Part shown: positions 1,401 through 58,269 of the stretch, in pieces
Layout of the letters: every line of letters starts with the position of its first letter
How positions within the stretch are numbered: position 1 is the stretch's first letter
IMG/VR virus record: IMGVR_UViG_3300027746_000020
Coordinates: 1-64,000 of that record
Reading direction: 5' to 3' (one strand)
DNA from: a virus
DNA length: 64,000 nucleotides
Program-made: the position numbers and the translations under genes
Notes under the pieces: model-generated
The model's input: the letters and a program-made list of their open reading frames with translations, nothing else
Told to the model about the DNA's origin: nothing
Database searches by the model: none

Positions 1401-4109
1401 ATGGCTGCGGATCCCCGCAATGGCTCGGACGACCAACAGGTGCCCGAGGACAAGGTGCTGCCAATAGGCACAGCCCGCGACATGTTTGACAAGAAGGTCT
1501 TTCCTGATGATTGGGCACTGATTCCCGTTGCCGGAAAGGACACCTTTCATAAAGGGTGGACGGACAGCAAGATCGAGCGGAAGAACATGCTGTCGGCTCT
1601 GGTGAGCGACAGCAGGTATCGAGGGCTAGGGGTTGTGACGGGTGCCCTATCAGGCGGGCTGATCGCCCTTGACATTGATGGGCATGAGGCGGATGCCAGG
1701 TACAAGGCGATCTCGGGGGAGGAGTATCAGCCCTATGGGGAGGAGACCACGATGTCGTGGACCTCTGGGAAGCCGGGGCGGCGGCAGTTGTTGTGGAGGG
1801 TGCCGGAGGCCCTGGTCCCGCAGTTGAGCCATGTGATCTCGCTGATCCTGCTGGAAGGCGGGGTCTGGTGGAGCGGGAAGGGCAGGCAAAACGAAGACGA
1901 CCCGATGAACCGCGCTCCGAAGGAGGAGCTGGTGCTCCGGTTCAACAGGTGCATGTCGGTTCTGCCGGGGAGCCCTCACCCGGACACAAAGAAGAGGTAC
2001 AGGTTCCTGCAGTACAACGGCGGGAAGCCTGCCGAGGCTCCGGCGTGGGTGCTTGATGTCCTGCGGTCCCGGCTGAAGCCGTCTGAGTGGCTGGCTGAGG
2101 ACGATCTCAAGGAGTTGGAGTCGGAGGTTGGGCGGACGCAAGTTCCGCCAAGGCAGTTGAGAGGCTGGTTCTTCAAGGACGAAGTCCAGCAGAAGCTGCA
2201 GCCGAGGCTGACGGATCTGGTCTTCAAACACTCGGTGTTTGATAAGTTTGGCTGGGAGGAGAGGGGTGGGAGCAAACCGCAGTTGATGAATGGCTGCCCT
2301 TGGCATGACAGCAGCAGCGGAACTTCGTTCCAGGTGAATGCGGAGAATGGCTGCTGGGATTGCAAGAGTTGTGGGGTTGGTGGTGATTCATTGGACTTTA
2401 TCCATAAGATTGAGACCAATGATATGTACGCCTCCCGTCCTGTTGGTTCGGAGCTGGAGCGGTATATCAAGCCGATTGCTGAAGCGCTTGGTTACCGCTA
2501 TCCAGAGGATCTGCTTATCGTCCAGAAGACGACTGATGTCCCTAGGGAGATCATCTCCGGGGTTGAATTGCTCGCTAGAGCAGAGAAGATTATCAAGGAG
2601 GTACGAGACCCTGCGGAGCAGTTCATTGCGCTGTCAGATCTTGCGGATATGACTGGGCGGATGCGGCTGACACCGACGAAGATCAAGGAGCTTGTGACAA
2701 GGCACAAGCAGTTCACGAAGAACAAAGAGATCGGTCTGCTGCGGGATCCAGATTGGCGGAAGGACGTCTCCCCGGAGGAGCACATTATCCCTGGTTTGAT
2801 TCGACGCCCTTCGCAGGTTCTCCTCCATGCTCGGGGTGGAGTCGGGAAGACGGAGACGGCCATTGCTTTGGCGAAAGCCATTGGTACGGGGTCGTCGATC
2901 AAGATCCGAGGGATCGAGGTGCAGTGCAGGCAGGGGAATGTTTTGTGGATCTCCAGCGACCAAAACAAGTCCCGGTTGGATGCTCAGTTGAGCGCTCAGG
3001 ATATTACTGAGGCGAACTCCGGCTGGTTCTACTTTGTAGAGAACTGGAAGACCGACCTTCCCCGAGAACTGGCAGAGATTATCAGGAAGGTTGAGCCGGT
3101 GTTGGTTGTCATCGACAGTCTGTCTTCATCGCAGGATGAAACCGGAGTGAAGGAGAACGAGGCTGAATACGCTTCCCCGCTCTATGCGCTTTCTGTCAAT
3201 AACGGGGATCTTAGTTCCGACTTTGGTTTTCCATCCTGCGCGATCCTCTGGATTCATCACAACACTAAAGACGGAGCGAAGTTCCGGGGGACGGATCGCA
3301 TCAACAACGCTGTCGACGAGACCTGGGAGTTGAAGGATCTCTCGGTTGAGCAGGAGGCCACCTTCGGTGTGAACTCCCGGCTGATGCAGATCGGCAAATC
3401 CCGGTATGACCGGAGTGGGGATCGGATGTTGATCCAGCGGGATCTGGAGCTGAACTACAGCATCGAGGATCTGACTCCACTGCTGGAGAGGGAGGGGGTG
3501 AACCGGACTGGCGACATCAGCCCCCGGAGCCTGGTGCTTGCTGCAGTGACGGACTCGGGGGAAGAGGGAGTTACGCCGAAGGCGATTCGGGAGTTTGTCA
3601 TGCACCGGATGGAGGGTGCTGGACAGGAGGATTTCCCGTCACGGTTTGCGATTGCAAAGCACCTGGCTGCATGGGAGAGAGCCGGGATGGTGGAGAGAGT
3701 TGGGATGACCGCTTCCGATGCTGGGCAGGGAGGACGGCCCACATTGTTGTTCAGAGTGCCTCGCGGGGAGAGATCAAAAGAGGGGGGTACAAACTTCGAT
3801 GTAGACGACCAGAACACATGGGGGGAGGGCCTTTTGAGGTTTGTGTCGGGTTTGTGTCCAGCCCCCCGGAACAGACCCACGGACACAAACCTCCCCGAGG
3901 TCGAAGAGGGTGACCAAACCGATCCAGGGAGGTTTGTGTCAAATGGGCCTGCAGGGGACGGAAGCGAGGAGGGTGACACAAACCTCCCCCCTGTCCCCGA
4001 GAGCGATCTGCCCCTGTCGGGAGGTTTGTTACCCCCTTCTGCGGCCCACCCCCGCGAGGGGATGGCTGGCTGGCTCGATGCCTTTGGCGGTGGGTCAACC
4101 GATTCGTGA
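1401..4109 (+). CDS. Primase-helicase: PrimPol plus RepA-like ATPase
   Basis: 902 residues. The N-terminus resembles the bifunctional primase/polymerase domain: GxxSGGLIALDIDG around residues 81-94, with the Asp-Ile-Asp metal pair at 91-93, and SGKPGRRQLLWRVP near 122-135. A CHC2-like zinc finger follows (CPWH near 299, CWDCKSCG near 318-325). A RepA/AAA_25 helicase core has Walker A GGVGKT at about 479-484 and Walker B VLVVIDS ending at Asp572. The C-terminus holds a winged-helix-like stretch and a long acidic low-complexity tail. It would synthesise primers and unwind DNA at the fork. The tail is encoded by repeats (3836-4031) that may be an origin. First gene of the replication operon; no strong ribosome site precedes the ATG. 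Confidence 0.9.
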   Translation: MAADPRNGSDDQQVPEDKVLPIGTARDMFDKKVFPDDWALIPVAGKDTFHKGWTDSKIERKNMLSALVSDSRYRGLGVVTGALSGGLIALDIDGHEADARYKAISGEEYQPYGEETTMSWTSGKPGRRQLLWRVPEALVPQLSHVISLILLEGGVWWSGKGRQNEDDPMNRAPKEELVLRFNRCMSVLPGSPHPDTKKRYRFLQYNGGKPAEAPAWVLDVLRSRLKPSEWLAEDDLKELESEVGRTQVPPRQLRGWFFKDEVQQKLQPRLTDLVFKHSVFDKFGWEERGGSKPQLMNGCPWHDSSSGTSFQVNAENGCWDCKSCGVGGDSLDFIHKIETNDMYASRPVGSELERYIKPIAEALGYRYPEDLLIVQKTTDVPREIISGVELLARAEKIIKEVRDPAEQFIALSDLADMTGRMRLTPTKIKELVTRHKQFTKNKEIGLLRDPDWRKDVSPEEHIIPGLIRRPSQVLLHARGGVGKTETAIALAKAIGTGSSIKIRGIEVQCRQGNVLWISSDQNKSRLDAQLSAQDITEANSGWFYFVENWKTDLPRELAEIIRKVEPVLVVIDSLSSSQDETGVKENEAEYASPLYALSVNNGDLSSDFGFPSCAILWIHHNTKDGAKFRGTDRINNAVDETWELKDLSVEQEATFGVNSRLMQIGKSRYDRSGDRMLIQRDLELNYSIEDLTPLLEREGVNRTGDISPRSLVLAAVTDSGEEGVTPKAIREFVMHRMEGAGQEDFPSRFAIAKHLAAWERAGMVERVGMTASDAGQGGRPTLLFRVPRGERSKEGGTNFDVDDQNTWGEGLLRFVSGLCPAPRNRPTDTNLPEVEEGDQTDPGRFVSNGPAGDGSEEGDTNLPPVPESDLPLSGGLLPPSAAHPREGMAGWLDAFGGGSTDS
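3836..4031. repeat. Cluster of direct and inverted GGGAGGTTTGTGTC repeats, candidate origin/operator
   Basis: Six copies of the core AGGTTTGTGTC or close variants lie in about 200 bases: plus orientation at 3836-3847, 3848-3859, 3927-3940 and 4019-4031; minus orientation at 3881-3894 and 3975-3988. They sit inside the primase reading frame and impose a low-complexity tail with recurring TNLP and RFVS. The arrangement recalls the iterons inside lambda gene O. A partial copy (AGGTTTGTGT) lies at 58193-58202, just upstream of the promoter at 58152-58180. The function as origin or operator is inferred. Confidence 0.65.
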
Positions 4110-4368: not shown

Positions 4369-5795
4369 CTGCCACTTTAATCAGGGAAAAGACCAAAAGC
4401 TGCAAAGTCAAGAATGTGCTTAGTAATCTTGGGGAAATTCTGGAACGTGCCGGTTACCCCAAGCTGACCGAAGATCAGATAGCTGTCGTCTCCGACATTG
4501 TGGAGAAGATGGCTGCAGGTGACACAACCGACTTTGTCGCAAGCCTGCGTGGTTCTGCAGGAACAGGTAAGACAGTGTTGTTGGTGGGGCTGATCGTCGC
4601 GCTAGACATCCTGGGGTTGAAGGTCGTTGTTACCTCCTTTACCCACAAAGCTTGCAGCGTGATCGACGTTCACATGAAGAACATTGGACGTCACATGCGA
4701 GGTACGGTCGAGCCGCTTACGTTGCACAGGCTTTTGAATCTGAAACCGCAAAAGGCAGAGTACGGCAAACCGGAGACTTTCACACAGGTGCGACCTCCAG
4801 AACTGAACGACATCGACTTTGTGCTTGTCGACGAATGTTCGATGGTAGGCAAAGACCTTGTCTTTCACATCGAGAAGAGCATTATCGAAACCGGAATTCC
4901 GATTCTCTATGCTGGAGACGCTTCACAGTTGAAGCCGATCAATGAGGATTCGTTGTCTGCAACGTTCAAGACTCCGCTCAAGTACAAATTGACGGAGATT
5001 CTCCGACACGACGGGGCGATCCTGAACCTAGCGACGAAGATCAGGACCATGAAATATCTACCCCAGGTAGGTCCAGCCTCGGGGGGTGGGACAGATGTGA
5101 TCGTCTACAAGAGCGGCGAGTTGCTGGAAGAAGCCTGGCTGCAGTCGGTATTGAACACGGATCGGTGCGAAGATACGGTCATGTTGACCTACATGAACAA
5201 ACACCGGAGGGCATTCAACCGTCAGGCGCGAATCGTATTGATGGGTGAGGACGCTCCTCGGTTTGTCGAGGGTGACACACTGCTGACTTTGTCTCCAATC
5301 TTGCAGGACGACAAGGTTCTGTATAGCAACAACGAAGACGTCCATATTGTTCGACCTCCTGACCTGATTGATGATTTCCGACCTATTCATGATCTGGACT
5401 TCACTTGCTCTGCTTGGAGGATTTTCACTGAGAAGGGTGTGAAGCTCTATGTCCTGGAAGATCAGGAAGAAATTGATAAGTTCAACAAGTACATAAAGGC
5501 GCTTGGGACGGAGATCTCTAAGGAAGCAAAAGCTGCCAAGGGTGGTTCCTACAATGGCATTCGCGCCGCGAAGCGCCGTTGGGCGACGGAGTATTTCCCC
5601 CTAAGAGCGTTCTTCGCTGACGTCGACTTCCGCTATGCGCTGACCATTCATAAGAGCCAGGGCAGCACTTTCCGTTATGTCTACGTCAACGATGACTACA
5701 GGAAGGCACGGGATCAGCAACAGCAGCTTATGTATGTTGCGGTAACGCGAGCTGCCCGTGAGGTTCACCACCTTGACACACGGGTTTCTGTCTGA
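4365..5795 (+). CDS. SF1 DNA helicase, Dda/RecD-like
   Basis: 476 residues. Walker A GSAGTGKT at 63-70, motif II VDECSM near residue 155, motif III-like YAGDASQLKPI, and C-terminal motifs LTIHKSQGSTF and YVAVTRA make this a superfamily 1B helicase close in plan to T4 Dda and RecD2. Such phage helicases move 5' to 3' on single-stranded DNA at forks or during recombination. It starts at a GTG overlapping the previous stop, and its own stop overlaps the start of the polymerase gene. The length is normal and all helicase motifs appear intact. Confidence 0.85.
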   Translation: MTATLIREKTKSCKVKNVLSNLGEILERAGYPKLTEDQIAVVSDIVEKMAAGDTTDFVASLRGSAGTGKTVLLVGLIVALDILGLKVVVTSFTHKACSVIDVHMKNIGRHMRGTVEPLTLHRLLNLKPQKAEYGKPETFTQVRPPELNDIDFVLVDECSMVGKDLVFHIEKSIIETGIPILYAGDASQLKPINEDSLSATFKTPLKYKLTEILRHDGAILNLATKIRTMKYLPQVGPASGGGTDVIVYKSGELLEEAWLQSVLNTDRCEDTVMLTYMNKHRRAFNRQARIVLMGEDAPRFVEGDTLLTLSPILQDDKVLYSNNEDVHIVRPPDLIDDFRPIHDLDFTCSAWRIFTEKGVKLYVLEDQEEIDKFNKYIKALGTEISKEAKAAKGGSYNGIRAAKRRWATEYFPLRAFFADVDFRYALTIHKSQGSTFRYVYVNDDYRKARDQQQQLMYVAVTRAAREVHHLDTRVSV

Positions 5796-7756
5796 TGGTC
5801 AAGCTTACCGACAGCCACAGTTTCTTCAATTCTCCTAGTCAGAACAAGCAGCTCGCCGAAGAGCTTTGGACTCTTTGCACAGTCAAAGGCCCTGTCGGGT
5901 TGGACACTGAGACTCTCGGGCTCGATCCACTCAAGGATCGGGTTCGGTTGATCCAACTCGGCACCGCCGATCACTGCATCATCGTTGACCTCGACGGCTG
6001 GCGATCCAGGGATGCCGAGGGAAACATCATCCGGGCGGTGCCTTGGGGGAAGCCGGGGCTGAAGGAACTGAAGATCATGCTGGAAGGGGCGCAGCCCAAG
6101 GTGCTCCAGAACGCAGCGTTCGACCTCAGCATGCTCCGGGCTGAGGGTGTGGTGGTGAAGAGTCCGATCTTCGACACGATGATCGCATCGAAGATCATCA
6201 CGAATGGGACGGAGCATAAGAACGATCTGGGAGCTATCGCTGCTAGGTATCTTAACATTCACCTACCCAAGGAACTGCAGAGAGCTGACTGGGGTGGAGA
6301 GATCACCACAGACATGTTGGGATATGCGGCTAGGGACGCCAAGGTGCTGCCGCTGCTGGTCGCTCCGATGTCGAAAAAGCTGAAAAGCAACGTAGTAACA
6401 ACCCATTCTACGGTTTCGCTCTTCGATGTTTTCTGCTTGGAGATGCAAGCGCTGCGCCCTGTCTCCTACATGCAATGGCATGGGTTTAAGTTCGATAATG
6501 CGCGAGCGCTGAGGCTCAAGGCGGAACTTGAGCTAAACGCGGATCGCCTTAAAGCAGCGTTTCTCAGTGCTCTCGATGAGGTTCTTCGCCAGCGTCACCC
6601 CGAGGACGAGACTAAATGGCTGCCTAGAGATCCTGATGGGAGCATCAATCTGCGGAAGAAGAATGTTGGGAGGGGGCAGCATAAGCTGTTGGCTGGGTTT
6701 AACCCAGGCAGTACACAACAGATGTCTAAGGCTTTTACCGATGCGGGGATTATTCTGCCTCCGGCCAAGCCTGTTAAAGGTAAGCCCGCAGAACCCGGTA
6801 AGGTCTCCCTCGATCAAAATCTTCTCGCCTTTCTCCGCAGTGACTACCCGCTGATTGACAGCTACATGACCTGGAGCACTGCGGATACCCGCGTCTCCTG
6901 TGTTGAGACATTGCTGAAAGCTGCAGCGAAGCATGGAGATAGGATCCACTGCAGATACTTGCAGATGGGAACCGCGACGGGGAGACTAAGTGCAAACGAG
7001 CCTAATCTTCAGCAAGTACCTAAAGAGAAAACATTCCGCTCTTTGTTCATTGCTGAACCTGGCTACAAGTTAATCTGCGCTGACTTTAGCCAAGTTGAGC
7101 TGCGTGTTGCTGCTGAGCTTTCGCGGGAACCGCGCATGATCCAGGCTTACGCGGATGGAAGAGATCTTCACACTGAGACCGCTTCTTCAATCGCGAGAGT
7201 TCCGTTAGAGGAAGTCACTAAAGCGATGCGGACTTCTGCGAAGATCGCAAACTTTGGACTGCTCTATGGCGCAGGTGCTGCGACATTTCAACGTCAGGCA
7301 TTAGCTCAATACGGAATTCTCTACTCCATGAAGGAGTGTAAAGAGATTGTCGAGGGTTTCCGGCTTGCTTACCCCACGCTCTATGAGTGGCAGCAACAGG
7401 AGGGACAGTCCCGTTCCACAGCCGTTTTCACCCGGTACGGGCGGAGAAGGATCCTCATTGGGTTCAATGACAAATACACCGTTCGGATCAATACTCAAGT
7501 CCAAGGGACCGCTGGGGACATTGCTAAGATTGCTATGGCGATGTTATGGGAACAGTTGACCGATGTTCCTGAAAGCGATGCTCGCCTCATTTCCTCCGTC
7601 CACGACGAGCTGGTCATGGAAGTCCGCGAGGAACTCGTCGAGGAATGGGCAGTGACCCTCAAGAGCTGCATGGAAAACGCCGGAGGCGTGGTCTGCAAAC
7701 TCACCCCCATCATCGCTGAGGTCGGCATCGGCGACACCTGGGCGGACGCGAAGTAG
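5795..7756 (+). CDS. Family A DNA polymerase with proofreading exonuclease
   Basis: 653 residues. Exonuclease motifs: Exo I LDTETLGLDP (36-45), Exo II around QNAAFDL (about 105-111), Exo III YAARD (about 178-182). Polymerase motif A ADFSQVELR (about 429-437), motif B RTSAKIANFGLLYGAG (about 479-494, with Lys and Tyr in place) and motif C HDELVMEV (about 603-610). Both active sites look complete. The size and architecture fit T7-like phage replicative polymerases. It overlaps the helicase gene (TGATG) and ends the operon. Confidence 0.92.
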   Translation: MVKLTDSHSFFNSPSQNKQLAEELWTLCTVKGPVGLDTETLGLDPLKDRVRLIQLGTADHCIIVDLDGWRSRDAEGNIIRAVPWGKPGLKELKIMLEGAQPKVLQNAAFDLSMLRAEGVVVKSPIFDTMIASKIITNGTEHKNDLGAIAARYLNIHLPKELQRADWGGEITTDMLGYAARDAKVLPLLVAPMSKKLKSNVVTTHSTVSLFDVFCLEMQALRPVSYMQWHGFKFDNARALRLKAELELNADRLKAAFLSALDEVLRQRHPEDETKWLPRDPDGSINLRKKNVGRGQHKLLAGFNPGSTQQMSKAFTDAGIILPPAKPVKGKPAEPGKVSLDQNLLAFLRSDYPLIDSYMTWSTADTRVSCVETLLKAAAKHGDRIHCRYLQMGTATGRLSANEPNLQQVPKEKTFRSLFIAEPGYKLICADFSQVELRVAAELSREPRMIQAYADGRDLHTETASSIARVPLEEVTKAMRTSAKIANFGLLYGAGAATFQRQALAQYGILYSMKECKEIVEGFRLAYPTLYEWQQQEGQSRSTAVFTRYGRRRILIGFNDKYTVRINTQVQGTAGDIAKIAMAMLWEQLTDVPESDARLISSVHDELVMEVREELVEEWAVTLKSCMENAGGVVCKLTPIIAEVGIGDTWADAK

Positions 7757-42726: not shown

Positions 42727-44681
42727 TTCTCGTCCTCGGGGGCTGGGCTCATCGTGAATACAGTCTGCTCGGGCAGGAAAGCAGTCAGCCCCTTCCGCGC
42801 CGCCCGGAGCGAAGCGAAGCCGGTGACCAGCGGACCAGGGACGATCACCTCGTCGAGCTTGATCGTGGTGCGGAAGGCGGCGTACCGGCGCGAGCGGCTG
42901 GGCCCGATCAGCACCAGGCGGGAGAGATCGGGGCTGCCATGGGCGTCCACGCGAGACTCATCGCTCACCCTGCGGCCCATGCTCATGCCGTCGATGTGCT
43001 TGAGGACGTTGATGTTGAGGTCGAGGGCCTCGTAGCTGTCGGTCTTGGGTGCGGCCTTGGGTTTGGGCTTCGGCTTGGCGGCGGGCTCCTCCTGTGGTTG
43101 AGACGCTTGCGACTCAGGTTGAGACCCGCCAGGGGCTTCGCCGGATTGATCCACAGGAGGCAGGATCCCGCCTTGATCCGCAGGAGCTGCGTTCGGATCG
43201 GGCTCGGGGGGAATCGGCTCACCATCCGGCCCCAAGCCTTGCGCCTGGAACGACTGCGCCTGCAGTTGATTCATATTGTTCTCAAACTCCGTGTCCTGCT
43301 GCATCTCCAACTGTGCTGATACATTTTTATCCAGCACGGTTTCGATGCTGTAATTGGTCGAGCCGAAGCGGTTGTTGCGGATCTCGACGGGCTTAAGTAC
43401 CCCGATGGTGACGTAAATCTGGTCGACAGAAGCTTGTGATGCGCGAAGCGCGGTCTTCTCCGTGTCCGTTTCGGTGAACACCGAGGGGAAGTGAACCTCC
43501 CAGGAATCCGGCACCTTGCCCCGCATTGGGCTCTCTTTCGCCAACATCAGCATGGTGAAGAGGTCCGAGACGGGCTCCTGGCAGTAGACGGTTTGCCAAT
43601 CTTCGACAAGGGACGCCCAGACACGTTCTTCAAACCGACCTTCTTTCCCGAGGCCACCGGGGCTGGTGCCCATCAGGATCGAGGCGGGCCAGCCCGTCGT
43701 GGCCTGCATGTATTCCGCAAACGGGGCGGTGGCCTGAGCCATGTTGCCGAGGGCTCTTTCGGAAAAGCCGATTTCCTCGTCTTTATCGAGGATCATCCCG
43801 CCGTAGGTGGAGCGGGCCAGGTTGTTGACCTCCATCCGCTTCATGATCGCAGCGGAGTTCCCGGCTTTGACCATGTTCATCAAGCCGGGGATCTTGTGCC
43901 AGAAGACGGAGGCGTCCGTGATGCTTGATTCCAGGCCACGCACTGCGGATTCGTAGGTCTTCCAGGCTTCCCAAACCGCCTGGAGGGGGGCTTGGCCCCA
44001 GCCGCTCTGCTGTTGGCGCTGCCGCCAGGGGAGATAAAGCCCGTCGAACCGGATCACACGGGTGTGGTGGATCGTGATGTTCGTCGTGTTGTTGATCTGT
44101 TCAGGATCGAGCTTCTGATTGGTCGTGATGCGGTACGCATTTGGCTTGGACTGATCCATGACGGACATGTCCATCGGGAAGATTTCGTGCCGGGAGAGGG
44201 GGCAGAGCCCGCGAATGCCACGAATGTGGGCGACGTTGACAGGTTCGGACGGGTCTTCGACACCGTCGTCGATGAGCATGACGATGGCAGCCCCGCCGTA
44301 GAGACGCTGGAGGCGGATCGCTTCTGCATAGGCGCGGTAGAAGGAGACTTGCTTGAGGTACGCCTCAAAGTCTTTGATCTGATCGACTTCGTCGGAAGAC
44401 TTATCTCCTCCCAATGTGATCGTCGGTCTGTGCTTCAGCACAGCATCCGCGATTGCGTCGACGTAGCGCCGAGGGAGTCCTACTGAGTAGAGGGCTTCAA
44501 GCTCCGGGTGGGAGAGCATGAAGGAGAAGCTGGGGCGGGTGTGTTGGGTCTTATCTCGACCGTAAACACCCATGCCGGTTAAGCCATTGACAAGGGCACC
44601 GTCAATACGCGCAAACTCTTCATCGCTGCGGTATTCAGCCGAGGAGGAGTTATCGGTAGTTTCGGAAGATGCTGTTGTCAC
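42723..44681 (-). CDS. Portal protein, DUF1073-like
   Basis: 652 residues. SLPRRY-like turn VGLPRRYVDAIADAVLKHRP, then RLYGGAAIVMLIDDG, then HHTRVIRFDGLYLPW and STYGGMILDKDEEIGF fit the DUF1073 portal family. A Pro/Gln-rich linker (residues about 500-560) leads to a C-terminal appendix with DESRVDAHGSPDLSRLVLIG. The portal forms the packaging ring at one vertex. The repeat array at 44731-44870 lies just upstream of its start. Confidence 0.85.
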   Translation of the reverse strand: MTTASSETTDNSSSAEYRSDEEFARIDGALVNGLTGMGVYGRDKTQHTRPSFSFMLSHPELEALYSVGLPRRYVDAIADAVLKHRPTITLGGDKSSDEVDQIKDFEAYLKQVSFYRAYAEAIRLQRLYGGAAIVMLIDDGVEDPSEPVNVAHIRGIRGLCPLSRHEIFPMDMSVMDQSKPNAYRITTNQKLDPEQINNTTNITIHHTRVIRFDGLYLPWRQRQQQSGWGQAPLQAVWEAWKTYESAVRGLESSITDASVFWHKIPGLMNMVKAGNSAAIMKRMEVNNLARSTYGGMILDKDEEIGFSERALGNMAQATAPFAEYMQATTGWPASILMGTSPGGLGKEGRFEERVWASLVEDWQTVYCQEPVSDLFTMLMLAKESPMRGKVPDSWEVHFPSVFTETDTEKTALRASQASVDQIYVTIGVLKPVEIRNNRFGSTNYSIETVLDKNVSAQLEMQQDTEFENNMNQLQAQSFQAQGLGPDGEPIPPEPDPNAAPADQGGILPPVDQSGEAPGGSQPESQASQPQEEPAAKPKPKPKAAPKTDSYEALDLNINVLKHIDGMSMGRRVSDESRVDAHGSPDLSRLVLIGPSRSRRYAAFRTTIKLDEVIVPGPLVTGFASLRAARKGLTAFLPEQTVFTMSPAPEDEK

Positions 44682-44730
44682 GCCGGTTCCTGCGTGTGCT
44701 CAGTGTAGCTTCGCTCTCGGGGGAGTTACG

Positions 44731-44870
44731 ACTTTCCAGGGTTCGTCCCGACTTTCCAGGGTTCGTTCCGATAAACCAGGGGTCGATTTCCCGACTTTCC
44801 AGGGTTCGTTCCGATAAACCAGGGTTCGTCCCGACATTCCAGGGTTCGTCCCTACATTCCAGGGTTTTGG
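44731..44870. repeat. Seven-copy 20-bp repeat array between terL and portal
   Basis: CCAGGGTTCGTyCCGAywwt units start at 44736, 44756, 44776, 44799, 44819, 44839 and 44859: 20-base steps with a single 23-base step in the middle. The array fills most of the 209-base gap between the terminase stop and the portal start. Regular spacing near two helical turns implies stacked protein binding, as in iterons or pac/cosB-like sites. Small open frames across it encode only the repeat and are not convincing genes. Confidence 0.85.
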
Positions 44871-44890
44871 GAGAATCGAGGGTGAAGCTT

Positions 44891-46387
44891 TCAAGCTGCG
44901 CGGAGGAAGCCAATGAGATCGACAGAACCGGGGGCCGCCATGGCTGCCAGTGCCAGGGCTATGACCGTGTCATCGTGGGCGGATCCTCCAGCGTTGCGCT
45001 TCCCCTTGTCGTCGCGGCGGAACGCTCGATGCTCGTCCGCGATGATCCCGTCAGGGAAGATCAGGTCATTGTCCTCCATCATGTACAGAGTTCTGTCTGT
45101 GATGGCGTTCTTTATTGGGTCGGACATGTAGACAAGTTCGATCTTGGTGCCTGAGGATTGGAGAGCCAGTGCTTCTGCGATGATTACCCCCATTGAGTTC
45201 TTTTCTACAATTACTTCTGATGGGAGGAAGTTGTCGATTAAGTCTTTGACTTTCTGCAGGCTATAAGGCGAGGAGCGATTGTTCTCGCGGTACATGGCCG
45301 CTACGCGGTTCGGTTTTGAGGTGATGTCTAGGACTACTGCGGTGAAGTAGTCGTCGCCGCCGCCGTTGGGGTCGACGCCCATGGAGTAGACGCGGTTGGC
45401 CATCCCACATTCTGAGAAGGCGCCTTTGGCGCAGGTTTTGACCAGGCTGCTGGGGTATATCGCCGATGCTGTCGAGCCAAACTTCAGCTCAAACTCAGCA
45501 TCCCACTGGTTCTTAGTGAGCTTCTCTTGCTTGCGGTAGTTCTCCGCCCAATCCGGGTCTGCCCCGTATTGAGGGTGCATGGAGTAATGGAGTGCGACTC
45601 GCGCCCAGCCGTCCTCTCTGCCGACTTCGTCGAGCATGGCCTGGAGACCGACGAAGTCGCGCCTTTCGACGTAGTCGTACCAGTCAGAAGGGAGACCAGT
45701 TGTCCATTTTTCCCCGAACCAGTTCGACTCCATGTCTGGAGTGGAGACGACGATCACCTTCCCGGCCCTGCCGAGCTTCATGAGAGAGGGGTTTGCGCCC
45801 TGGTAGATGTCGGCTACCCCCTCGATGAAGGCCGCTTCGTCGAGGAAGAGGACGGAACAGGCGGGGATACCACGACCACCCCGGCCTGTTGCGGGGAGGA
45901 AGTGGAGAGTTCCTCGGCCCCGCCAGGAGAGGCGTGTGTCGCTGTTGGAAAGCCAGGTGAGGGATTCGTTTTTGAGAGATTCGACCATGAAGCGGACACG
46001 CTTCGCCAGTTCCTGGGAATCTTTCTGGGTTTTTGAGATGATTACGGCTGTGAAGCCGGGTTCGGTTAATGCCCTATTGGCTAGATAGTTACAGATGACC
46101 TCGGATATACCAATCTGCCGGGATTTGAGGACTTGGATCCGCCGTGCTCGGTGAAGGATCTTGACGAAGTCCTTCTGGAATTGATATGGGTTGAACGGCT
46201 GAACAGCCGCACCCTCATCGTCACCAGTTTGGATCCATGTGAGCGGCGCGAAGTCCTGCCAATTTTCGACTGAGGGGAGCGATGTCACCAGCTTTGCGCT
46301 GGCGTGAAGCATCGCTGCAGCTTCCCTCAGCTCGGTTTCTTTTTCAAGCCGTGCCAGTCGAGTACGAAGTGAAGAGCCGTATTTCAC
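44891..46387 (-). CDS. terL: Terminase large subunit
   Basis: 498 residues. Walker A-like KSRQIGIS (88-95), Walker B VLFLDEAAF (near 176), and the RNase H-like nuclease with MGVDPNGGGDDY (near 337) and AHDDTVIALALA (near 470). It cuts concatemeric phage DNA and drives it into the prohead through the portal. ATPase and nuclease residues appear complete. Its start overlaps the stop of the small subunit gene by one base. Confidence 0.9.
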   Translation of the reverse strand: MKYGSSLRTRLARLEKETELREAAAMLHASAKLVTSLPSVENWQDFAPLTWIQTGDDEGAAVQPFNPYQFQKDFVKILHRARRIQVLKSRQIGISEVICNYLANRALTEPGFTAVIISKTQKDSQELAKRVRFMVESLKNESLTWLSNSDTRLSWRGRGTLHFLPATGRGGRGIPACSVLFLDEAAFIEGVADIYQGANPSLMKLGRAGKVIVVSTPDMESNWFGEKWTTGLPSDWYDYVERRDFVGLQAMLDEVGREDGWARVALHYSMHPQYGADPDWAENYRKQEKLTKNQWDAEFELKFGSTASAIYPSSLVKTCAKGAFSECGMANRVYSMGVDPNGGGDDYFTAVVLDITSKPNRVAAMYRENNRSSPYSLQKVKDLIDNFLPSEVIVEKNSMGVIIAEALALQSSGTKIELVYMSDPIKNAITDRTLYMMEDNDLIFPDGIIADEHRAFRRDDKGKRNAGGSAHDDTVIALALAAMAAPGSVDLIGFLRAA

Positions 46388-54295: not shown

Positions 54296-55278
54296 GACTC
54301 CACCTTGCTCCAGTCGATGACAATCGCCGGGTGTACTTCACCCAGGACGAGAGTCAGGGCGAAGCCCTTTGGGGTGCTATCGAGAACTGCCTCCTGAATG
54401 ATCCCCACCAGGGCGTTGCGCTTGGCGCGGGTGGCGGGGAGCTGCTCCGCGTCGGATACGGGCTCGGGGGCAGATCGGCGAGTCTCAGTCTGAGTCTCAT
54501 GAGACTTCGCCTTGGCCTCCGCCTCTGCGGCCTTGCGCTCGGCAGCTTCGGCCTTCTTCCGCTCCGCTTCGATGGCGGCCTCCGCCTCCTTGGCCTCTTT
54601 GGCTCGGAGCCGCTCCGCCTTGGCCTCCGCATCGGCTGTGGCTTTCGCGGCGGCGGTCTCAGCGATCTCCGCTTCGCGGCGAAGACGGGCGGCTTCCGCC
54701 TCCTCCTCCCGCTTCTTCTGCCTTGCGGCCTCCGCCTCTTCGTGGTCGATGGCGGCTTGCAGGGCCTCCTCCAGTGCGGCGCGTGTGATCTGGATCTCCG
54801 CGTCAGCCTTCGGGGTGAACTCCTCAAAGGTCGTCGGGTCGATCTCTGTGAGGGCGTCGAGGAGCTTCATGATCCGGGCGGAATCCCCGTGGGGGCCCCG
54901 GCGCATCTCGCTGATGGTGTCGATACCAGCTTCGTGATCAGCGATTCGCTCTTTTTCGGCCTCTTCGATGCCTTTGATGATCCGCTCATGCGGTTCGATC
55001 AGGGCGGTTACTCGCTCTGTCAGCTCCTTGGCGAAGCCGTTGACGTTGCGGATGTAGGACTGAGCTTCGTCGTTCTGCGCTTTGCGCGTACGGTCGATGG
55101 AGGTTCGGACCTGGCGGAGCCCGTAGATGTAGCTCCGGGCGGCCTTGTTAATCGCCGGGTTGCTGTAGTCACCGAAGGTTGTGACGGCTTTGGACTCTGC
55201 GATTTCGACTTCGGAGGTGATCCGGTCGAATGGGGTGAGGACCGTGGTGTCAAGGACTGGGCTTTTGGTGAGAGTCAT
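54292..55278 (-). CDS. Coiled-coil protein with DUF1351-like layout
   Basis: 328 residues. Residues about 30-120 (TSIDRTRKAQNDEAQSYIRN, then TERVTALIEPHERIIKGIEE) resemble phage proteins associated with recombination. Residues 175-270 are an almost pure Ala/Glu/Lys/Arg coiled coil. The end has a small folded domain (LVLGEVHPAIVIDWS). A replication or recombination accessory role is inferred. Overlaps the Tad2-like gene by four bases. Confidence 0.55.
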   Translation of the reverse strand: MTLTKSPVLDTTVLTPFDRITSEVEIAESKAVTTFGDYSNPAINKAARSYIYGLRQVRTSIDRTRKAQNDEAQSYIRNVNGFAKELTERVTALIEPHERIIKGIEEAEKERIADHEAGIDTISEMRRGPHGDSARIMKLLDALTEIDPTTFEEFTPKADAEIQITRAALEEALQAAIDHEEAEAARQKKREEEAEAARLRREAEIAETAAAKATADAEAKAERLRAKEAKEAEAAIEAERKKAEAAERKAAEAEAKAKSHETQTETRRSAPEPVSDAEQLPATRAKRNALVGIIQEAVLDSTPKGFALTLVLGEVHPAIVIDWSKVES

Positions 55279-58180: not shown

Positions 58181-58269
58181 CCGATTCAGGAAAGGTTTGT
58201 GTGAGTGCGCTGAGAAAGGAGGCGCAGCCTGGGCTTACGTCAGGAAGGTTGACTGCCAGGTGGTGAGGG

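Follow-up and report, generated by a model that had tools for sequence, protein, structure and literature searches.

Mixed-orientation iterons in the 3' tail of a viral primase-helicase gene: a candidate replication origin that changes in step with the winged helix of its own protein

The window analysed in this work (the whole stretch of 64,000 nucleotides, positions 1-64,000 of the 71.7-kb IMG/VR record IMGVR_UViG_3300027746_000020) harbours a putative primase-helicase initiator gene at 1401-4109 on the + strand, and the 3' tail of this gene contains an array of short repeated sites, referred to here as iterons. The open reading frame (ORF) encodes 902 amino acids, with Pfam matches to PrimPol (residues 37-216, E = 1.7e-15), a DnaG-type Zn ribbon (residues 296-341, E = 1.3e-7) and a RecA-type AAA_25 ATPase (residues 457-625, E = 1.1e-14), followed by a winged helix (about residues 696-787) and a low-complexity tail. 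The winged-helix domain (residues 696-787; 3486-3761, + strand) was modelled with AlphaFold2 from 43 sequences (mean predicted local distance difference test, pLDDT, of 79) as three helices (H13-23, H31-44 and H53-66) and then two strands, the latter forming a wing at about residues 765-786 with an uncertain tip. The PDB matches of the model were winged helices, including Orc1/Cdc6 solved with origin DNA, and these Foldseek/VIA matches were taken as proof of the winged-helix fold and of nothing beyond it. Two parts of the domain were associated with the repeated sites (see below): the recognition helix a3 (residues 748-761, RFAIAKHLAAWERA; 3642-3683, + strand) with the left half of the site, and the wing (residues 765-786, ERVGMTASDAGQGGRPTLLFRV; 3693-3758, + strand) with the right half.

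Six copies of a GGGAGGTTTGTGTC-like site, in the order + + - + - +, had been reported in the tail by the initial annotation and were confirmed by a mismatch-tolerant listing. Iterons 1 (TTGAGGTTTGTGTC, 3834-3847, + strand, two mismatches to GGGAGGTTTGTGTC) and 2 (GTCGGGTTTGTGTC, 3845-3858, + strand, three mismatches) lay 11 bp apart; iterons 3 (3882-3895, - strand), 4 (3927-3940, + strand) and 5 (3975-3988, - strand) matched GGGAGGTTTGTGTC without mismatches; and iteron 6 (GGGAGGTTTGTTAC, 4019-4032, + strand) had two mismatches and was of the GTAACAAACC type found in a close relative, L001. A degenerate iteron 0 on the - strand (3786-3795, GGTACAAACT on the + strand) was found where the relatives have their first site. 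The site is spelled GACACAAACC in reverse orientation, and this spelling was used for all comparisons of left and right site halves. The core GGTTTGTGTC occurred five times in the whole record, every time in the primase tail array. The best 9-mer of the tail was present six times, compared to four times at most in 20 codon-shuffled tails, which argues against chance, and a window-wide ranking of repeats placed the array among the strongest clusters and first among those using both strands.

Two scans of viral contigs and a scan of genomes yielded relatives from IMG/VR and from picocyanobacteria (Synechococcus, Cyanobium and Vulcanococcus), and 67 distinct complete primase genes formed the comparison set. 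The genome scan returned no relative with the window protein as sole query, but did recover relatives with the alignment as query; one viral-contig scan with L119 as query gave no matches. The best repeated 9-mer of each tail was searched for blindly and benchmarked against the maximum of 20 codon shuffles: 59 of the 67 tails were above this maximum, with up to 10 mixed-orientation copies per tail, and the top word in four of the 59 was a different, CCGAGG element. Nearly all relatives had a mixed-orientation array at matching positions, with a site word that differed by lineage (TGTCCAAAAC, TGTCCGTAAA, TGTCGTTAAA, TGTCCGTTC, TGTCCATCG, TGTCCTTTG, TGTCCGAAC, TGTCCGCAC, TGTCCCTCG, TGATATTTG, and others). 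Counted from the winged helix, sites recurred within and between clades at 52+, 94-, 125+, 164-, 194+ and 237-, or in an alternative layout at 37+, 79-, 110+, 172/184-, 191/203+ and 234/246-. Conservation of the repeats in related phages had been set as a check by the initial annotation; positions and orientations were indeed conserved, but the sequence was not constant and changed in concert.

This concerted change was visible between close relatives. The L001 protein was 92% identical to that of the window over 790 residues, and its six sites lay at the same aligned places. Five of the six copies shared the same two substitutions (GACACAAACC in the window, GTAACAAACC in L001) and no further change was found within the sites (10 of 60 positions), the sixth window copy being already of the L001 type; outside the sites, 54 of 300 tail positions differed. 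A third version of the site (GTTGCAAAAT-like) was present at the same six places in L002-L004.

A Pro/Gly/Glu-rich tail in which TNLP and RFVS recur could suggest a repeat at the protein level, and a repeat could also arise by chance or as an assembly artefact, but the probability of either is close to negligible: the sites occupied both strands and every strand/frame combination, and dozens of independent contigs, as well as cyanobacterial genomes, had such arrays. The reading as a protein repeat was further refuted by L083 and L121 (one subclade), where a stop codon upstream of an equivalent array of 6-7 sites makes it intergenic; in L118 and L125, the array extends past the stop codon. The intergenic array of L121 alternated in orientation with a spacing of 43/30/38/30/43, compared to 42/31/39/30/43 in the coding array of L071, and L207 had the same repeat as L083 and L121. 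Since the array was kept where the ORF ends before it, the primase-tail repeat is a DNA element and not a protein repeat. The intergenic region of L083 and L121 also contained the CCCCGAGGGCGA/C block found in coding relatives. Between iterons 5 and 6 of the window lay the block CCCCGAGAGCGATCTG (3995-4010, + strand); a related block, CCCCGAGGGCGAT, was present in relatives and was non-coding in L083 and L121. A second element, CCCCGAG(G/A)NCGA, was observed at 3893-3900 and 3995-4010 of the window and in the tails of many relatives; being non-coding downstream of the L083 and L121 primase genes, it may constitute a separate DNA signal.

An element acting at the RNA level was also considered, with inverted copies folding as mRNA hairpins or as a terminator. 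Adjacent copies are in fact inverted, with 31-34 nt between the arms, but compensation between hairpin arms leaves unexplained why the direct copies 11 bp apart changed in step, as well as the association of the sites with the wing of the protein, and from these sequence comparisons the explanation is highly improbable.

The initial annotation had also interpreted the repeats as possible operators of a phage repressor, and had named a 59-residue ribbon-helix-helix (RHH) protein and a 227-residue helix-turn-helix (HTH) protein as potential binders. Exact site copies in 26 loci numbered 134 in 11.6 kb of tails, whereas 312 kb of flanks had 3, of which two immediately follow the L118 stop codon; no copies were seen at other promoters. 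This distribution does not support repressor operators. The half-site proposed at 58193-58202 did not stand out from the background: the match at 58190-58203 had three mismatches, and a sequence of 64 kb should contain about seven matches of this quality by chance. The RHH ORF starts about 50 bp past the primase stop codon, and RHH proteins typically bind operators or centromeres, but an RHH protein was encoded downstream in only 5 of the 67 loci. The gene for the 227-residue HTH protein was widespread, but its product was 99% identical between L081 and L112, two loci with switched sites; similarly, an AbrB-like neighbour was 100% identical over the aligned part between L024 and L026 despite their site switch. 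Operator or centromere sites for any of these three proteins are thus very unlikely. The third binder suggested, the primase, was retained as candidate, as the covariation points to its own winged helix.

In these two pairs, the difference between the proteins was concentrated in the wing. Outside the wing, L081 and L112 had a single difference in 777 aligned positions, compared to 10 in 20 within it; the stretch from the wing to the last iteron was replaced, and the sites went from TGTCCGTTC to mostly TGTCCTTTC/G, with two L112 sites retaining GTTC. L024 and L026 showed 8 differences in 724 positions upstream, none in helices a1-a3 and 8 of 21 in the wing, and their sites were TGTCCAAAAC and TGTCCGTAAA, respectively. 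In other loci the helix changed: between L105 and L096 it went from IKTVKRW to QLTVRRW and the left site half from TGTCC to TGATA, the right half staying T-rich (the L105 array is somewhat degenerate, a caveat on this comparison). L118 and L119, both in one Vulcanococcus limneticus genome, had a similar wing, different helices and sites that differ by one base (TGTCCCTCG vs. TGTCGCTCG). The varying residues of helix a3 were F/A in the window, T/W in L001 and Q/G in L002.

The association was quantified by scanning the whole protein in ten-column segments (862 in total), using pairs of loci with less than 30% upstream divergence. A global column-by-column association over all loci was dropped because clade structure swamped the signal, and only close pairs and permutation within clades were used. 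Wing segments were the top five of the 862 for the right site half (r about 0.75), and helix a3 was near the top for the left half (r = 0.71). Within-clade permutation equalled the association in 0 of 5000 cases for the wing and the right half, and in 1 of 5000 for helix a3 and the left half. Parsimony on the upstream tree required at least 25 changes of the right half and at least 12 of the left half, and a GRP wing accompanied an A-tract in most lineages. Three loci fetched later fit the association: L206, which shares the L037 helix and has a wing of similar sequence, showed TGTCGTTAA; L160, with a QRRPVPSYT wing, showed TGTCCGTTC; and L138, with a SDKPVTSYT wing, showed TGTCCATTG, like other DKPV wings. 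The expectation preceded the reading of the tails for L138 and L160, while the wing and tail of L206 were printed together.

Considered as a whole, the comparisons suggest that the primase 3' tail is an iteron array which most likely serves as the phage replication origin and to which the encoded primase-helicase would bind by its C-terminal winged helix. The sites changed jointly, and did so along with the protein region that is predicted to recognise them, so that the gene most likely carries its own replication start. An origin embedded in the primase gene had been proposed by the initial annotation and is the best-supported reading, although the RHH and HTH binders proposed with it do not fit. 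Like iteron-type origins, the array comprises several clustered copies of a short site specific to one replicon, and the site sequence matches the specificity of its own initiator (on evolutionary evidence, the covariation with helix a3 and the wing); as in gene-embedded origins of the lambda O kind, the iterons lie within the initiator coding sequence, and most relatives have the same arrangement. Helix a3 would read the left site half from the major groove, leaving the right half to contacts with the wing; several initiators would assemble on the sites via their winged helices and load the RecA-type helicase domain, melting would follow, and the PrimPol domain would then prime replication. 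The reading frame through the array may act as a flexible linker to the acidic/aromatic C-terminal end.

Various observations weigh against this proposal. The main weak points were the missing AT-rich unwinding element beside the array (GC averaged 50-58% for the array, compared to 58-67% for the window) and the missing turning point of the GC skew of the window at the array; as the AT-rich criterion is lacking, the proposal is that the array works like an iteron origin, not that it is a textbook member. For the left site half, a few unrelated protein segments scored 0.72-0.80, above helix a3, because the switches are few. In nearest-neighbour prediction on the main set, the helix or wing was only modestly better than other regions, and this advantage was lost among distant loci. 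The rule was not strict, the similar helices SRRTAERW (L079) and SRRTVERW (L119) being accompanied by TGACC and TGTCG, respectively. Wing and array are physically linked, and part of their correlation is consequently cassette linkage. Finally, the arrays of L031, L069, L092, L094, L105 and L123 were degenerate or doubtful, and the motif registers of L116/L117 and of the window group were set by eye.

The main rival to an origin is a control or incompatibility function of the same sites: the winged helix of the primase would bind them for autoregulation, copy-number control or incompatibility (sink or handcuffing) and not for initiation. The helix and wing covariation applies equally to this function, the next gene follows closely on the array, and an adjacent AT-rich unwinding element is missing. 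However, a second lineage-specific array was not seen within several kb of the gene, and comparable initiator iterons in or next to their own gene are origins (SaPI Rep and Cch2, PMC7581432; lambda O, PMC7466680), so that this function is the less probable of the two, and we consider it unlikely.

Wing and array are also exchanged jointly, in a cassette about 350 bp long, and related phages and prophages would in this way acquire replication specificities that differ and are compatible. That a two-part code (left half read by helix a3, right half by the wing) lies beside its own target in one gene and is swapped as a cassette, allowing related elements to coexist without cross-talk, is slightly favoured over the contrary; Vulcanococcus limneticus, with two copies carrying TGTCCCTCG and TGTCGCTCG, would then be an example of such coexistence.

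The principle is already known from lambda O, SaPI Rep, pRN1 and PLE RepA. Among the origins of the P4 alpha system are oriI and crr, as well as oriII in the alpha gene. In lambdoid O genes, iterons within the gene lengthen the protein, which binds them (PMC7466680, PMC6022878). The window array shares this location inside the gene of the initiator, but lambda has 4-6 iterons, which are placed mid-gene in O, an adjacent AT-rich region and a protein that is an initiator only, whereas the window array is at the 3' end, in mixed orientation and with no AT-rich region seen, and its initiator is fused to PrimPol and a RecA-type ATPase; Pfam and PHROGs matches were to PrimPol, Zn ribbon and AAA_25, and homology to lambda O was not found. 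The helicase initiators SaPI Rep and SCCmec Cch2 recognise short repeats directly downstream of their own genes, SaPI Rep by its C-terminal domain (PMC7581432). L083 and L121 share this layout, but SaPI Rep and Cch2 are helicases of other families with arrays outside the ORF, while the array of the present family is in most cases coding, and the specificity follows particular residues of helix and wing. The PrimQH primases of the archaeo-eukaryotic primase (AEP) superfamily (Kazlauskas et al. 2018) combine a primase, a Zn-binding domain and a P-loop ATPase, including RecA-type RepA/DnaB helicases, with a winged helix at the C-terminus, for which a role in origin recognition has been suggested (PMC5862659). 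The window primase has the same domain order (AEP primase, Zn, P-loop ATPase and winged helix), a likeness of architecture only; origin and recognition are only suggested for PrimQH, whereas this family offers candidate origins and covariation at the residue level. ORF904 of the crenarchaeal plasmid pRN1 likewise joins a primase and a helicase to a winged helix, and a required origin of poorly conserved sequence lies directly 3' of the gene (PMC4234260), but with a stem-loop needed and a superfamily 3 helicase instead of an iteron array within the ORF. In the PLE satellites of Vibrio cholerae, the DNA-binding domain of RepA_N covaries with the origin iterons, and the two are exchanged in modular fashion, possibly as an escape from a phage nuclease (PMC8263062); the covariation in PLEs links an entire domain to a non-coding origin in a few elements, compared to a 20-residue wing plus array and many switches here. 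No description of the present arrays was found in the literature searched, and the paper on Synechococcus phage S-LBS1 makes no mention of repeats. As far as searched, the arrays in these primase genes are new, as are the division of the covariation between helix and wing and the exchange of wing and array as one cassette.

From sequence alone, the analysis supplies a candidate target for the winged helix of dozens of primase-helicases, names the residues, and opens a route to locating origins of uncultured phages. The switches form a natural series of swapped DNA-binding specificities, useful for work on the protein-DNA code, and suggest how compatible replication systems may arise in temperate cyanophages, by the swapping of replication "passwords". 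The genes neighbouring the primase of the window (DNA polymerase A, a Dda-like helicase and an integrase, by Pfam and PHROGs) fit a temperate cyanophage, the window virus being a phage of picocyanobacteria.

Repeat clusters at the 3' end of, or within, primase/ATPase genes were also observed in S-LBS1 and in some Nostoc plasmids, and hint at a wider layout. In the isolated phage S-LBS1, about 16 GCCTAACCT-like copies lay at the primase 3' end and beyond it (L126:8072-8529), part of the block being repeated at the end of the record. The last 520 bases of an ATPase gene of a Nostoc HK-01 plasmid contained nine TAGTCAACA copies, and a DUF3987 gene of a Nostoc plasmid (L132) contained two mixed-orientation ATTGTCAGT clusters, at about 5006-5093 (seven copies) and 6626-6725 (six copies). 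Two Calothrix plasmids had GTGTCCACG and GCGTCCACG at near-identical places, with only four copies, no more than in shuffles. No array was found in pANS-type CyRepA1, only the common HIP1 site GGCGATCGC. The primase tail of L209 showed TGACCGAAAAT copies and several GTATC...GATAC inverted pairs, and L205, the second primase of the Synechococcus BO 8801 genome, which is partial and contains a single internal TAA, keeps about eight GTGTCAGTATTC-like copies. Elsewhere in the window, seven direct CCAGGGTTC copies within a few hundred bases (about 44600-45000) formed the strongest direct-repeat cluster, and another direct-repeat cluster, with six copies of GGCCTCCGC / CTCCGCTTC, was located at about 54400-54900.
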